From NCBI GenBank assembly GCA_001931905.2, contig MSJI02000666.1:62001-126000 (forward strand): a stretch of DNA of 64,000 nt, read 5' to 3'. The stretch comes from Cladosporium sp. IMV 00045. Lineage: Eukaryota > Ascomycota > Dothideomycetes > Cladosporiales > Cladosporiaceae. Positions 22,006-30,807 of the stretch are shown here, piece by piece. The position numbers and the translations under genes are program-made. The first letter of the stretch is position 1. The number at the start of each line of letters is the position of its first letter. The notes beneath the pieces were generated by a model, which was given only the letters and a program-made list of their open reading frames with translations, had not been told where the DNA came from and ran no database searches.

Positions 22006-22539
22006 CTACTGCTTGCTGTAGTTGTTCTTCTGAGTGTTGTTGTCTCCGCTGAGATTGTTGTTGTATTGATTACCACTGCCTGTATTGGCATTGATCGCAC
22101 CACGACCGGAGTGCGAGAACACAAGTGCGGCCTCGTCAGGCAGTGAGGACGTAACCTCGGACAGCTGCTCAAGCGCAGCGTCGAGGTCCTGAGACCGTGC
22201 AGCCGTTTGGAAGTAATGATTGGCCTGAAGCAACGATAGCTTCTCGAGAATCTCTTCCATCAAGCTTTCGACCTTCTTACTTCTTCCAGGTTTAAAACTG
22301 CGTAGGGCGGCAGCGTAGCGTTGAGGCAGAGATGCACCGTCATCAGGCACGACCTTCTGAAAAATCAGGCTGAGGTCCTCCCCAATGCAGAAATCATGAG
22401 AAAATTGCGAGAGCACTATGGGTGTTTGGCGAGGCTGAGAACAAATTCGCAGGAGTCGATGGCTACCTTGTTTTGGCGAGGCTGTACTATCAGCGTGATA
22501 TCCCATCAAACCAGTAACCCCCACTTGGGCTTCAGACAT
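22006..22539 (-). CDS. SesA-type protein with a C-terminal amyloid-like motif
   Basis: The protein has 177 residues as read from the ATG at 22539. Residues about 58-115 match the second half of the fungal SesA domain: LIFQKVVPDDGAS, then RYAAALRSF, KVESLMEEILEKLSLLQANH and TAARSQDLDAALEQL. The first half of the domain is not recognisable, so either it has diverged or the true N-terminus is spliced from upstream; a GTAAGC..GCTGAT..ACAG pair at about 22555-22484 could be an intron. The extreme C-terminus has GSGNQYNNNLSGDNNTQ (residues 154-170), which matches residues 25-41 of the divergent NACHT receptor. In characterised fungal systems such paired motifs form amyloid and let the receptor trigger the partner. 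The role as downstream partner is inference from architecture. SesA domains are also found directly fused to NACHT proteins, so this may be a separated receptor head. Confidence 0.65.
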   Translation of the reverse strand: MSEAQVGVTGLMGYHADSTASPKQGSHRLLRICSQPRQTPIVLSQFSHDFCIGEDLSLIFQKVVPDDGASLPQRYAAALRSFKPGRSKKVESLMEEILEKLSLLQANHYFQTAARSQDLDAALEQLSEVTSSLPDEAALVFSHSGRGAINANTGSGNQYNNNLSGDNNTQKNNYSKQ

Positions 22540-22686
22540 GCCACGCTAGGCTTACGTGCATGATTGATGCAGCTGGATAGTTCACGTGAGCTGCCGCGAA
22601 CTTCCCGCCCTCAGCCTTGATTTCGACAGCTTCTGAGCAAAATGCCGCTTCTTTAAACAAAGATGGCTTCTCAGTAAGCTAGTAGA
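22540..22686. promoter_or_regulatory. Shared divergent promoter of the SesA-type / NACHT pair
   Basis: Only 147 bp separates the two start codons, so the genes probably share regulatory sequence. The minus strand is also open from 22674 down to about 22540 and could hold an upstream exon of the SesA-type gene. No TATA box or factor site is clear. Confidence 0.5.
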
Positions 22687-25324
22687 ATGGAAAATCTGCC
22701 ATTCAGGGCTGCATCAGTCGTGGGAGGATCAGGCGGCGGGCCTGCTAATACCCTCATCGGTTCTGGAACGCAGTATAACAGCAACTTGACTGGTTCCGGT
22801 AACACTCAGCACATCTACTATGGTCAGAACGAAAAACCACGTAAGTTCAGACGCTTTTCAACCCCGGCGGGATAAGTCTAATCGGTGTCACTTAGCGTCA
22901 GAGAGGTGCAGAGATGCCCTGTTCCTTTGTGATCCCGCAGTGGATCGAGCGAATCTTGTCACCAACAAGGGCGAGAGGGTCCCTGGAACTTGTGAGTGGA
23001 TTACACGCAACGATAACTACATTCTGTGGCAAAAAGGCGAAAGCGGTCCTCTTTGGATATCCGGAAGCCCCGGCAGAGGAAAGACAATGATCTCCATCTA
23101 CATCACCCACGAACTGGAGATGGAGCATACGCCAGTGATATTTTTCTTCTGCGACCGAACAGCCAACGATCGTACCACCGCTACCGCCGTTCTGCGTGGG
23201 CTCATTTGGCAAACCACACATCACATCAAAGAACTTGCAAAATACTTGCATCAGTATTTTGACCCAGAAGTCGGAACGCCCAGAAATCTTTCCACTCTAG
23301 CATCTCAAGAGACCCTTTGGAACATTTGGATGACACTCCTCGACCAATCTCCTTTGTCGACGCCCATGTACTGTCTCCTGGACGGTTTGGACGAATGTGA
23401 CGATGACTCGAAGCGATGGCTTGCCAAGAAGCTCACCTCGCTCCAGTCGTCGTCGGTGCTGCGGCTTGCTGTGGTGAGCCGTCCCGACATTGGTCTGGAT
23501 AAATTCGCTCGGATCAAACTGGATCCTGACAACAATGAAGAGATCAATGGCGACGTTCTCCAAGTCGTGGCAACAGGACTGCAGGAGCTTTCGGAGAAGA
23601 TTCCACGCTTTGAAGAGATCAGAGACGACGTGGAATCCAAAATACTCGAACGAGCCGATGGAACCTTTCTTTGGATAGGCTTCGCAATGCAAGACTTGCT
23701 CAAATGCGCAACCACAACAGAGATCCTCAGAAGAATCCAGGAGTTACCCAAGGGTCTCGATCTTCTCTATTCGCACATGCTCCTTCGGATTAAAGAAGAA
23801 AACAGGACCTCGACCGCTCTTATCCTCCGATGGGTGACGATGGCTGAAAGACCTTTGGCACTCGATGAAATTGGCGAGATCCTTGGCCTGTCGGCAGAGA
23901 ATTCAATCGCTCGCTATCGAATGCTGGAGGATAGAGTCCGTGTCTGCGAGCCTTTCATACGTCCCCTCATTTTCGGCAGATATAGCCTCGTACACATGTC
24001 TGCGAGAGATTATTTATTGCGAGGGAACGTTGACAATGATGTTATACTGGAAAGCTTCCGAATCAAAGGCGCAGAAGCGCACCTCAAGTTGGCAGAATTT
24101 TGCCTTGACCAAATTGTGAAGAATGGGCCGCTCTACAACTATGCCAAGCAATACTGGGTCGACCACACCGCAAATGCGTCCAAGCATGCAGAAGCAATGT
24201 TTGAATGCAAGTGGGTAGTCTTTGGCGGGCCATGCGAGCGTCGAGACGCCTTCTGGAAAAAGATTGAGAAATTCGATCATGGCATCCCGCCACCTTTACA
24301 CCTTGCATGCAGGCTCTCACTTCCTGTATGGGCGCACAAGATAATATCGGAGAACTGGTGGAGATTCGACTCTCGAAGACTCTACACCCAGACCTACCAG
24401 GGCGAGACAGCTCTATTCGTAGCCGTGCGTGAGGGGCTGTGGACGGTAGTAGACTCTCTCCTCGCACAAGGGGCAGACATCGACGCGCGCGACGAAGACG
24501 GAGCCACATTGCTGATGCACTTTGCATTAGGAGGGCGTTATAGAAGTGTCGATCTTTTGCTTTCAAGGGGTGCGTCCATTGATGCACAAGATCATTTGGG
24601 AAGGACTGCACTTAGGGCTGCGGTAGAATTCAGGAACTACCACACCGTTGACCTACTCCTCAGCCGCGGCGCTAGGGCTGACATCAGAAACAGCAGTGGG
24701 CGTACTGTACTACACCAAGCAGCAGAAAATAGTGACCTCAGGTCCGTAAGGTTACTTCTCAATGTCGACAGCAAAGCTACAATTGATATTGCAGATCAGA
24801 ACGGCTTCAACGCTCTACATCTAGCAGCCAGCTTCGACACTGTGGAGCTGTTGTTGGAGCGAAGAATCAAGATCGGTCTAGAAACAAAACCCGACCGGGA
24901 TGTACTTCGCAGGGCGCTCAAATTCTCTGAATATCGCTTGAAGAGATTGTGCCGGTCTCTTAACAGGGGAGCAACGAACAGAGGCAGAAACCAGATTGTA
25001 TTTGCAGCCCTTGGTGAAGCTATCGAACTTGGTCACCGCGATGTCGCGCGTCTGTATCTCGACCAGACGGAGCATGATGACGTGAATAATAGTGGAGAGT
25101 ACACAGTACTCCATGCTGCGGCCGAGTTGGGTCACGCAGAACTCGTACGCCGGTTGCTGGAATATGAAAAGGAGACTTTTGCGGAAGGCTATGCGGAATC
25201 CATTCTACGCAGCGCAGCCAAAGGAGGAAATACGGAAATTTTGCGTCTTTTACTCGAGCAAGGCGCAAAGATAGAGCCAAACGTTACATCCGGCAGACCA
25301 CTCATACACGTTGCGAGCGAGTAG
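22687..25324 (+). CDS. NACHT-ankyrin NLR-type receptor with an N-terminal amyloid-like motif
   Basis: This is a STAND receptor. Exons are 22687-22840 and 22896-25324 (860 residues up to the stop); the 55-nt intron is GTAAGT..TCTAAT..TTAG and joins QNEKP to PSERCRDALFL. Residues 1-51 hold no death-like domain, only a Gly/Asn/Gln motif, GSGTQYNSNLTGSGNTQ (25-41), which matches the C-terminus of the divergent SesA-type protein. The NACHT domain follows: CEWITRNDNYILW, Walker A GSPGRGKT (about 108-115), Walker B YCLLDGLDECDD (about 210-221) and VVSRPD. A winged-helix-like region and the family-typical VHMSARDYLL follow. Ankyrin repeats begin at about 548 (GETALFVAVREGLWTVVDSL, and several GADIDARDEDGATLL-like units). 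The frame stops inside a repeat (TAG at 25322), although ankyrin sequence continues beyond it. It probably signals to its neighbour on ligand binding. Confidence 0.85.
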
Positions 25325-25731
25325 AGGCATCTAAGCGTACTTCGACTGCTTCTTGCTCGAGGCGCCGACGCCAACGCCAACGCCAAAAACGAAGGAGGCG
25401 GCGCGGCGCTGCATTGCCTGGCTCATGACTGTTACCAATGGATGATGCAAGATCTGAGACCGTCAGGAAGACCTGCTTGTCGGTCCGAAACTTGGATGCT
25501 AGACTTAGCCATGGAAAAACAGCATTTGACGTCGCAAAGCAAAACCACAGAACTTGGCTCGTGGACATCCTACAAGAGCATTTCAAGCGACCGAAGCTTC
25601 AACGCTCACAGAGCCTGAGCGGCATGCCGAGTCTCATCCCAGCCATTGCTGAACGCTTACCAGGCTCCGCAACTTCCCGCACGAAAAATATCACCATTCG
25701 ACGAATCGGGCGTGTCATGTCTGTCGTCTAG
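25325..25731 (+). pseudogene. Decayed C-terminal ankyrin tail of the NACHT receptor
   Basis: Immediately after the TAG at 25322-25324 the same frame continues with a clear ankyrin unit (HLSVLRLLLARGADANA, then ALHCLAHD). At about 25430-25440 the ankyrin-like reading moves to another frame, consistent with one lost base, and continues with HGKTAFDVAKQNHRTWLVDI to a stop at 25731. No GT-AG intron of workable length removes either lesion. The tail is therefore separated from the receptor by one nonsense and one frameshift change. The stop could come from CAG by C-to-T, the direction expected of repeat-induced point mutation, but a single change proves nothing. Confidence 0.65.
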
Positions 25732-27306: not shown

Positions 27307-30300
27307 CTACAACTTCGCACCAACCTCCTCAAACTCCGCCAACTCCCTAACCATCCTCGGCCCCCTGCTAGCCGGCAAGCTCGCCTTCCAAGCGCGGACA
27401 TCATCGATCACCACCGGTTTCTTGCCGTCCTTCTCACCCTCCTTCACTTCCCCATTAACCTCCCCAGACTTCTCAGCCTCAGCAGAAGCAGACTTGATCC
27501 CCAACAAACCGCCCACCTGCCCCAACACGCCCTCCGCCTGCTGAGCAATACTCTTCACCTGTTCTTCCGCCATGCCGGGGAGGGAAGTGAGGTAAGAAGT
27601 TACTGTTTCGAGCACCTTTTTTGCATCTGCACCAGCACCAGAAGAAGACAAATCCATCTTCTCCAACTGCTTCGAAAGGTTCTCCTCATCCACGCCCTCA
27701 GCGCCCAGCTGCTGCAGGGTCTGCGTGAGAGTCGAGGAGAGGTTCTTGAGCTTCTGGGCCGCGGGAGTGGTCGAGCCACCCTGAGCGACGAGGTGGACGG
27801 ACGTCTTGGCTCGCGTCGGGGAGTCAGGGTGGAAGTAGGTCTTGTAGAAGGCGAGGAGGTCGCGCTTGGTCAGGGGGGCGATGTTTTCGACATCGTGGTG
27901 GACTGTTTGCTGGAAGTTAGCATGGGCCTTTTTGCCGGTTTGAGAGAAAGGGGGAGGGGGAGAGATCGCTTACCAAGATCGAAATCAAACGCCTCGGAAG
28001 CAACATGATGCCACAACCTCCCGCTCTCCTCGCTGAGATTCTTCAACTTCTCCAACCTCTTATTGATGAGGCCGACTTTATGCTTGCCGAAATCCTCCTC
28101 GGTCATCTCCTCCAATTCCTTCTCAAAACCAATCAAGAAACTATCAATCCTCTCTTCCAAATACGCGCAATCCTTCTCGCTCTGAATGAGCACGCGGAAA
28201 GCCTGCACGGTATTCAGCACCAACATGCCGCTGCCGACGATGTAGCCGAGCTGCTCCTGCGTGCGCAGGGTGTTGAAGCAAGGCTCGTCGAGCATCTGGG
28301 CGAGCAACAAGAGGCGAGCGCGCAGGGCGCGGTCCTGGTTCTGGCCCACGAAGACGACGTACTCGATGCAGTGGTTGATGTTGTCTGGGTTCTTGAGCGT
28401 GTGCTCCCACCTGTAATCGCTTCCAGGCGGGAGGAGCATGCTGCGCTTGGTCGGCCATTGGCTGGCGGGCAGGCGGCGGGGTTGCAGCGTGCGCTCGACA
28501 AGGTCGGTGATGCGCAGGGCGTCTTCTTTGTGCACGTTGCCGTGGACGAGGAGCTCGATGTGCATTTGGCGGAGAATTTGGGGGAAGAAAGCGCGCACGT
28601 CGTCGGCGGTGACGGATTCGAGTTCTTCGGTTAGTTCGAATTGGGCCCAGCTGCGTTCAGCGATCAGCCAGCGCGTGTAGGTGGAAACCTGGCGGAAGGG
28701 CTCGGTGTATTCGAAGTTCCGCAGGCCGCGGAGGAGGGACTCCTTGACGATCTCGAAGCGGTCTTGCTTGACTTCGAGATCGCGCATGGAGACAAGGACC
28801 TTCTCCAGCAATACTGGCATCTTGTCGTTGTACCCGCTGACTTGGATGTCAAGACCAGTCGAGTGAGGCGCAACGGCATAGCGCAGGCCAGCAATCTCCG
28901 CGTCGTAAGAGTACTCCTTGAGACTGTCTTCAATGAGCTCCTTGTACATGTAAGTCATGATAGAAGCAAGAGGAGTGACTGAAGTGATCGGACTGCGAAG
29001 GCAAACATGCACATTCGCCTTGGGAACCCAGAACTGGTCGTCCTTCTTGAACCAAGTGCGGGTGTTTTCATGGTTGCGAATGAGCTTGGGAGTAGTAGCC
29101 GGGGACTCAACCTCCTTCTTCTCGACGTCCAATCTCTGCGGCACGAACTCGTTCTTTCCAGGAAGGTAGAGATCAGAAGGACGAGAGCTGGCGGGGGCTG
29201 AGATAGTGCTTTCAAGCTCTTTCACAAAATCCGCAGGAAATGCTTGAACCTTGTACTCGGTACCGTACCACTTCTCCTTCGAAGGCCACTCGTCCATCAA
29301 GTCCTTGCTGACGACGTTGTAGCGGAAGTTGTCCGGTCTGAGCTCGTTAAGACCGCGCGTGATAGCCTCCGGATCGAATTTGTGAATCAAATGCTGACCG
29401 CTCAAGATCTGGTCTCTGGGCAGAGGTTGCTGCATGACACCGCTCAAATTGCTGGTAGTCCTGCTGGCAGGGCTCTTCTGGCGGAACTTGAAATCAACCT
29501 CAGCCAGCTTGGCCATCTCTTCGACAACCCATTCTTGCGGGGGAGTGTCTTTGAGCAAAGCGACGTACTGGAAGAACGCCTTGACAATTTCACGATAGTG
29601 CGTAAGCCCATCTTCAGTCAGAGTCAGACTGCAAGAAAACTGACCCGCACCAGGACAAAGCGAAGCAGCACCAGCACTAAGCTCATTGACCCAACCCTTA
29701 GCCTTGAGGTACGCCAAAAGACTACCAGGGCCTTCATGACCGATCAAATGGCTGATATAGCGGCCGGGCTTCGACTGCCACAAGTTCTCCTCATCGGGGT
29801 AAGGGAAATGCAAGTCCAGCTGCCTCTTCTGCATGACGGGCTTGACGAAGACCTCAATCCCCAACTCCTCCGCTCCGTAAACAGGAATGCCATCCCACCT
29901 CAATTTGGGCAGATTCTGATCCGGCACGTCGACGAACAATTCCTCGACCCAGCTCTGCAGTTCGTCCAAACTCTCCCTACCCAGCACGACCAACTTCATG
30001 CGGTTGGCTGAATAGTGCTCTTTGTAGAAATTGATAAATTCATCCCTAATCTTGACTCCCCTGGCAAGCGGATCATCGTGCAAAGTCTGATAGTTGCCCG
30101 TCGCAAAATTGTGGTATGGATGTTTCTTGTTGGACAGCGCCCTGTTCAGCTGGAACATGCGCCATTGATCGCTCTGCAAGTTTTTCTTGTTCTCCGAATC
30201 GACGGCGCGCAACTCGCGGTCAAGAGTGTCCTCCAGGAACAACGGACGGACGAAGAATTGCGCGAATCGATCTAGCGCGCCGTAGAGGGGTGCGCTTTCT

Positions 30301-30807
30301 TTGGGGATGGGCAGACTGGTCGTGCTGTTGGCGGCGGAGGAGTTTGCGCTTTTTGCTGTGGAGGAGGCGGAGAGCTCGAAGTAGTAGTTGGTCGAGGTGT
30401 GTGCGGTGAAAGCGTTGGAGTAGCCGCCGTATTTGGTCAGGTAGGAGTTGTACTCGTTTTCGCCGGGGTACTGCGAGATTGAAAGTGGTTAGCTAATGCA
30501 TACCTACTTTCCCAAACGCAAGTGTCCAGGCATGACTGATCATTCTCACCTTCTCAGTCCCCATAAAAAGCAAATGCTCCACCGCATGAGCAATGCCAGG
30601 CAACTCCTTCACATCGCTGAAACTGCCAACATTGACGTCCATGGCGGCCGAAGCCTTGTCGGTGTCGGCATCGTGAATGAGCAGAGCCTCGAGCTGGTTG
30701 GGCAATTTGATGACTCGGTAGGTGCGCTCGTCGAGGAGAGGTTTCTCGAGTCTCTCCGCCAGGCGTTCAACACCGGCGGGTCGGCTGTGAGAGATGGGTT
30801 CAGCCAT
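27307..30807 (-). CDS. STE23: Insulinase-family metalloprotease (Ste23/insulysin)
   Basis: This is an M16 zinc protease related to yeast Ste23 and human insulin-degrading enzyme, a chamber protease that cuts small peptides, including a-factor precursor in yeast. Exons are 30807-30550, 30470-27974 and 27902-27307 (1116 residues). Introns: 30549-30471 (GTGAGA..GCTAAC..GCAG) and 27973-27903 (GTAAGC..GCTAAC..AACAG). The inverted zinc motif HxxEH is present in GIAHAVEHLLFMG, followed across the first splice by YPGENEYNSYLTKYGGYSNA and TNYYFEL, as in insulysin. Later regions include DEPCFNTLRTQEQLGYIV, the hallmark RTQEQLGY of domain 4. The C-terminal exon ends with ENIAPLTKRDLLAFYKTYFHP and a variable acidic segment. 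The frame is open and Arg/Ser-rich upstream of 30807, which might be a mitochondrial presequence read from an earlier ATG. Confidence 0.92.

Follow-up and report, generated by a model that had tools for sequence, protein, structure and literature searches.

A probable sigma-type NLR/SesA gene pair with a variant motif, apparently decayed, in Cladosporium sp. IMV 00045

In the available excerpts of Daskalov et al. 2012 (PMC3321046), homologues of sesA and sesB adjoin STAND genes carrying ankyrin, TPR, WD or HEAT repeats, the sigma motif is a threefold repeat of GxGxQFNxx and GGTQNINT submotifs, and the C-terminal ends of both sesA and sesB are homologous to the N-terminus of HET-eN. A 2017 review, in the part available to us, describes SESA as remotely homologous to HeLo domains and restates the sigma case (PMC5485727). 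In het-s strains the effector head is non-toxic and nwd2 is inactivated by a transposon, and it was suggested that the loss of either partner orphans the other (PMC3321046, excerpts). HET-s is described as a natural cytotoxic-dead variant with a prion tail (PMC12881547, excerpt).

We analysed a window of 64,000 nucleotides of Cladosporium sp. IMV 00045 that contains two divergent genes of this kind. The locus most resembles sesA/het-eN, the sigma locus of Nectria haematococca, where according to the same excerpts a SesA effector lies beside a NACHT-ankyrin STAND protein, the motif is found at the C-terminus of the effector and the N-terminus of the receptor, the receptor gene has an intron in its 5' region and the repeats are of the G-x-G-x-Q-(F/Y)-N type (PMC3321046). 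Unlike sesA/het-eN, the window has a variant motif under the Pfam sigma cut-off, its SesA domain is missing the front half and its receptor ends early. A preliminary description had presented the SesA head as a departure from the best-known pairs; as sesA/het-eN is the original sigma locus (PMC3321046, excerpts), the SesA head is no departure and is a founding sigma effector.

With HET-S/NWD2 of Podospora anserina the window shares divergent adjacent genes and a receptor without effector domain whose N-terminal motif is homologous to the C-terminal motif of the effector, and het-s strains too lose head toxicity and receptor together; HET-S/NWD2 differs in its 21-residue HET-s repeat, its HeLo head, its WD repeats and its loss by point mutation plus transposon insertion (PMC3321046, excerpts). 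In the NLR28/sigma class (Wojciechowski et al. 2022, PMC9815663, in the part available) the motif likewise stands at the NLR N-terminus and is paired with the C-termini of neighbouring effectors, with a relative majority of sigma motifs at 50-99, while that of the window receptor is at residues 15-48. Among the literature matches listed no publication title concerns this particular pair.

The receptor gene and the shared motif

The predicted receptor product is 860 aa long and is encoded by two exons (Table 1). In a Pfam profile search it matches NPHP3_N with 120.5 bits as well as ankyrin repeats, and the winged-helix region scores just under its cut-off. No Pfam family is listed ahead of residue 82, so no N-terminal effector domain was found. 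The protein is thus built as a sigma-type receptor, with an NTPase and repeats and without an N-terminal effector domain.

Table 1. Features of the receptor gene and its divergent neighbour (positions in the window)
Feature	Position	Strand	Remark
Neighbour ORF, 177 aa + stop	22006..22539	-	divergent from receptor
Neighbour C-terminal sigma-like tail	22009..22110	-	
Neighbour 17-mer of the preliminary description	22030-22080	-	within tail
SesA domain, rear part (PF17107 positions 75-122 of 122)	22228..22377	-	Pfam profile match
Putative deletion scar	22381..22392	-	12 bp here vs 321 bp in C586, where they cover the SesA start region and the domain's front half
First part of the 177-aa ORF	22393..22539	-	matches the DNA that precedes SesA in C586; the two copies differ by several gaps of a length not divisible by three
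Receptor exon 1	22687..22840	+	51 codons and one base; ATG 22687; includes N-terminal motif
Receptor motif region, 34 residues	22729..22830	+	three G-x-G-like repeats
Receptor 17-mer of the preliminary description	22759-22809	+	within motif region
Receptor intron	22841..22895	+	55 bp, GT-AG; C586 paralogue alignable across intron
Receptor exon 2	22896..25324	+	NPHP3_N/NACHT NTPase, winged-helix region, ankyrin repeats; TAG 25322-25324
Homology to C586 receptor past the TAG	25325..25686	+	receptor's own frame at 25370-25480, a different frame at 25489-25686

A homologous motif is present at the receptor N-terminus and the effector C-terminus. Residues 25-41 of the receptor (GSGTQYNSNLTGSGNTQ) and residues 154-170 of the neighbour (GSGNQYNNNLSGDNNTQ) are identical at 12 of 17 positions, as the preliminary description had reported, and none of 200,000 shuffles of one 17-mer reached 12 identities (maximum 10). 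The local alignment of the receptor N-terminus with the neighbour C-terminus extends over 45 columns with a score of 100; double shuffles, 20,000 in all, averaged 26 and never exceeded 62. In relatives the motif is a 34-residue stretch with three G-x-G-like repeats, the middle one, GxGxQYNxN, being the clearest and the two flanking ones weaker. Nine positions are invariant in all nine aligned segments (three receptors and six SesA tails), which were picked for their mutual resemblance. Motif placement, the divergent neighbour and conservation in relatives bear out the architecture of a sigma-type STAND/effector pair that had been proposed for the locus.

The codon pattern for GxGxQYNxN occurs at six places in the genome of the window (49.9 Mb, 954 contigs) compared to none for the reversed control. 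These six are four SesA tails and two NLR N-termini, namely both window genes, the receptor of a paralogous pair (C586) and tails at C12, C730 and C747; the C12 tail is in a different frame from the C12 SesA head. The shorter core GxGxQYN is found at 12 places versus 4 in the control and is by itself partly chance. With the 34-residue tail as query at E<=10, six places were again found: the two window genes, C730, C837, C586 and, weakly, C12 (E 0.26).

For the neighbour the Pfam sigma model PF17106 gives 12.4 bits where its cut-off demands 27.6, so that formal assignment to the sigma family is tentative. At E<=1 the model is listed neither for the receptor nor for four SesA relatives (P0003-P0006). 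Six further proteins all missed the cut-off, three with 11.7-18.7 bits and three unlisted.

Beyond this genome, a Cladosporium fusiforme receptor carries a variant of the motif near its N-terminus and is 52 % identical to the window receptor over 79 % of its length, which makes it the closest named relative among the 120 of 404 matches listed. It is also the only one of these 120 (of 404) whose first 90 residues match either of two simple expressions, a count in which at least three relatives (P0007, P0008, P0012) begin after the P-loop with their true N-termini unseen. The named organisms among the 120 of 404 listed are ascomycete fungi.

We also considered whether motifs match specifically within cognate pairs. 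This is unsupported, as the scores do not single out own partners. The window tail scores 112 with the C586 receptor and 121 with the receptor P0009, compared to 100 with its own. The tails of C747, C12 and C178 score 68, 68 and 67 with the window receptor versus 53, 52 and 38 with the candidate N-termini of their own neighbours, which were chosen by eye from six-frame translations and are a biased choice; out of 5000 shuffles, 3, 0 and 83 respectively reached the own-neighbour score.

The missing front half of the SesA domain

The neighbour had been called SesA-type. This holds for the rear part of the domain, and the front half is absent: PF17107 matches with 32.5 bits (cut-off 26.3), yet only at profile positions 75-122 of 122, and the neighbour does not contain the whole 122-position SesA domain with its N-terminal helices. 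All four relatives scanned, P0003-P0006, match positions 1-122 or 3-122 and are 51-76 % identical to the neighbour over the matched part. The window ORF has nothing to match roughly the first 96 residues of P0003; in a structure model of P0003 of moderate confidence (mean pLDDT 63) the missing part corresponds to helices 2-30, 36-43, 45-69 and most of 72-105. Foldseek, used to look for a fold match to solved HeLo or MLKL structures with a modelled head from a relative, returned no PDB entry at E<=0.001. The first 54 aa of the neighbour show no resemblance beyond shuffles to the heads of any of six relatives (score reached by 223 to 1893 of 2000 shuffles). A genome search for SesA that scored 25 candidates gave, at E<=0.01, no other SesA piece on the contig of the window.

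The paralogous pair C586 (L028, C586:37500-46500), likewise a divergent SesA/NLR pair, indicates how the front half came to be missing. Its receptor is 64 % identical to that of the window over exon 2 and shares 46 of the 51 residues of exon 1. Collinearity runs from the receptor through the intergenic gap: from 23200 down to 22393 the two copies align with 82 % DNA identity, position 22393 lies by alignment just upstream of the C586 SesA start region, and homology is back at 22380. By this comparison, about 310 bp with the SesA start and front half, as present in C586, are missing from the window. We place the deletion on the window side because the front half is present in intact relatives. 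As a consequence, the first part of the 177-aa ORF lies, and starts, in former upstream DNA.

The protein collection contains identical copies of the 177-aa ORF from two contigs of at most 1,739 bp. Since neither of these is the 203-kb contig of the window, an assembly slip is less likely, although the strain of origin may be the same.

The early end of the receptor and related loci

In the preliminary description the receptor ends at 25324. The frame does stop there, but the end is an early one compared to relatives. The C586 receptor frame runs on far beyond the point that corresponds to window position 25321, the DNA similarity between window and C586 is 63 % from 25200 to about 25766, and the C-terminal segment of the Cladosporium fusiforme relative is similar too, as judged by eye. 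Compared to these relatives, the window receptor has probably lost its C-terminal part while retaining the motif, the NTPase and most ankyrin repeats. A splice form skipping the TAG could exist unseen, which would argue against decay of the receptor.

Both genes show Ka/Ks values below 1 in their retained parts. For the receptor, window versus C586, the ratio is 0.19 in exon 1 and 0.28 in exon 2 overall, with 0.17 in the first third of exon 2 and 0.48 in the last. For the rear part of the neighbour it is 0.19 compared to C730 and 0.20 compared to C837. Such values would mostly record constraint before decay and do not prove decay.

In the whole genome we found 22 SesA places at E<=0.01, 17 of which exceed the Pfam cut-off. 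An NPHP3_N match is present within 0.7 kb of at least 10 of these 22 places, a lower bound since 150 of the 171 NPHP3_N candidates were scored, and only the window and C586 are divergent among these 10. Several further SesA places end in sigma-like tails, as judged by eye. Damage takes different forms at these loci. The C586 receptor frame is broken by a single stop of its own and the C586 SesA head by several, and no sigma tail is recognisable there. At C837 a SesA copy has stops and a frame change and has kept its tail. C730 (L036) is a second SesA remnant, with an open and intact tail and no front half.

Several observations were made along with these. The C730 remnant lies about 1 kb before another SesA copy without an evident tail. 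SesA copies at C747 (L032) and C12 (L034) have divergent neighbours whose frames, by eye, resemble NB-ARC, and the candidate N-termini next to them have Q-S/T-G and K-x-F-N in common with SesA tails, that of C12 also TQNF. Scoring 150 of the 171 NPHP3_N candidates in the genome gave at least 133 matches at E<=0.001. The NLR repertoire is large, and stops break several of its frames. In the window itself, a long open frame at 27870-30488 on the reverse strand looks by eye like an insulinase-type metallopeptidase, an unrelated neighbour gene.

Decay and its alternatives

We favour the reading, with a probability of roughly 0.72, that the two genes form a sigma-type NLR/SesA pair, a kind known from fungal amyloid signalling, and that this pair has now decayed and its effector is headless. 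In an intact pair, if published systems are a guide, the receptor would sense a ligand with its ankyrin domain, the NACHT domain would then oligomerise and the clustered N-terminal motifs would adopt an amyloid fold. These motifs would in turn serve as template for the tail at the C-terminus of the SesA protein, allowing its helical head to act on the cell, presumably leading to cell death. The window copy has preserved the tail and the receptor motif, with the front half of the head and the C-terminal part of the receptor gone. Owing to these two losses the effector output of the pair is probably lost, and at most the tail could still co-aggregate. The window fits the pattern of paired loss described for het-s strains, where head toxicity and nwd2 are both lost (PMC3321046, excerpts). 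The preliminary description therefore recognised the kind of system; the damage to both genes was absent from it, and the working pair that it implied is at odds, in this copy, with the missing SesA front half and the early end of the receptor frame.

One alternative is that the pair works as it stands, with a complete receptor of 860 aa and a 177-aa protein that functions as effector with a head that is shortened or of another kind. Both frames are open, the motif and the NTPase are conserved, the low Ka/Ks of exon 1 and of the first third of exon 2 would be expected of such a pair, and the C730 remnant likewise combines an open tail with no front half. We nevertheless consider a working pair unlikely, given that the first 54 residues of the neighbour are largely former upstream DNA with gaps that do not come in threes and match the head of no relative, that each of the four relatives scanned has the whole SesA domain and that homology to the receptor goes on past the stop.

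It is also conceivable, if improbable, that the neighbour is a sigma-type analogue of the non-toxic het-s allele, having lost its head and kept its tail as a prion-capable or receptor-buffering protein. The intact tail behind a missing head front, the second headless remnant with a tail at C730, and the precedent of a cytotoxic-dead HET-s with a prion tail and an accompanying loss of nwd2 (PMC12881547 and PMC3321046, excerpts) are consistent with this idea. Simple decay yields the same picture, however: the C837 tail has been kept behind stops and a frame change, and C586 instead keeps a stop-ridden head without recognisable tail. More speculatively still, we hypothesize that this non-toxic protein with its receptor-matched prion tail would be the sigma counterpart of het-s, and that the tails of the window and C730 may persist by propagating a prion state or by buffering the remaining sigma-type receptors, a scenario to which we give little credence.

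Finally, although G, N, S, T and Q abound in the two segments and the seven-residue core also turns up in the control, the notion that their similarity is mere Gly/Asn/Gln-rich low complexity without functional meaning is very hard to sustain and was rejected, given that composition-preserving shuffles never reach the score, that the GxGxQYNxN pattern is confined genome-wide to SesA tails and NLR N-termini (6 of 6 places) and that a variant occurs in the Cladosporium fusiforme receptor.

Read as a decayed pair, the locus would add a sigma-type SesA/NLR pair with a variant motif under the Pfam sigma cut-off, caught while decaying. Together with C586, C837 and C730, which are among the loci most similar to it, it may provide a small natural series in which to ask which half of such pairs is lost first, with the head front gone and the tail kept in the window, a broken head and no recognisable tail in C586, stops and a frame change with the tail kept in C837, and a tail without front half in C730.
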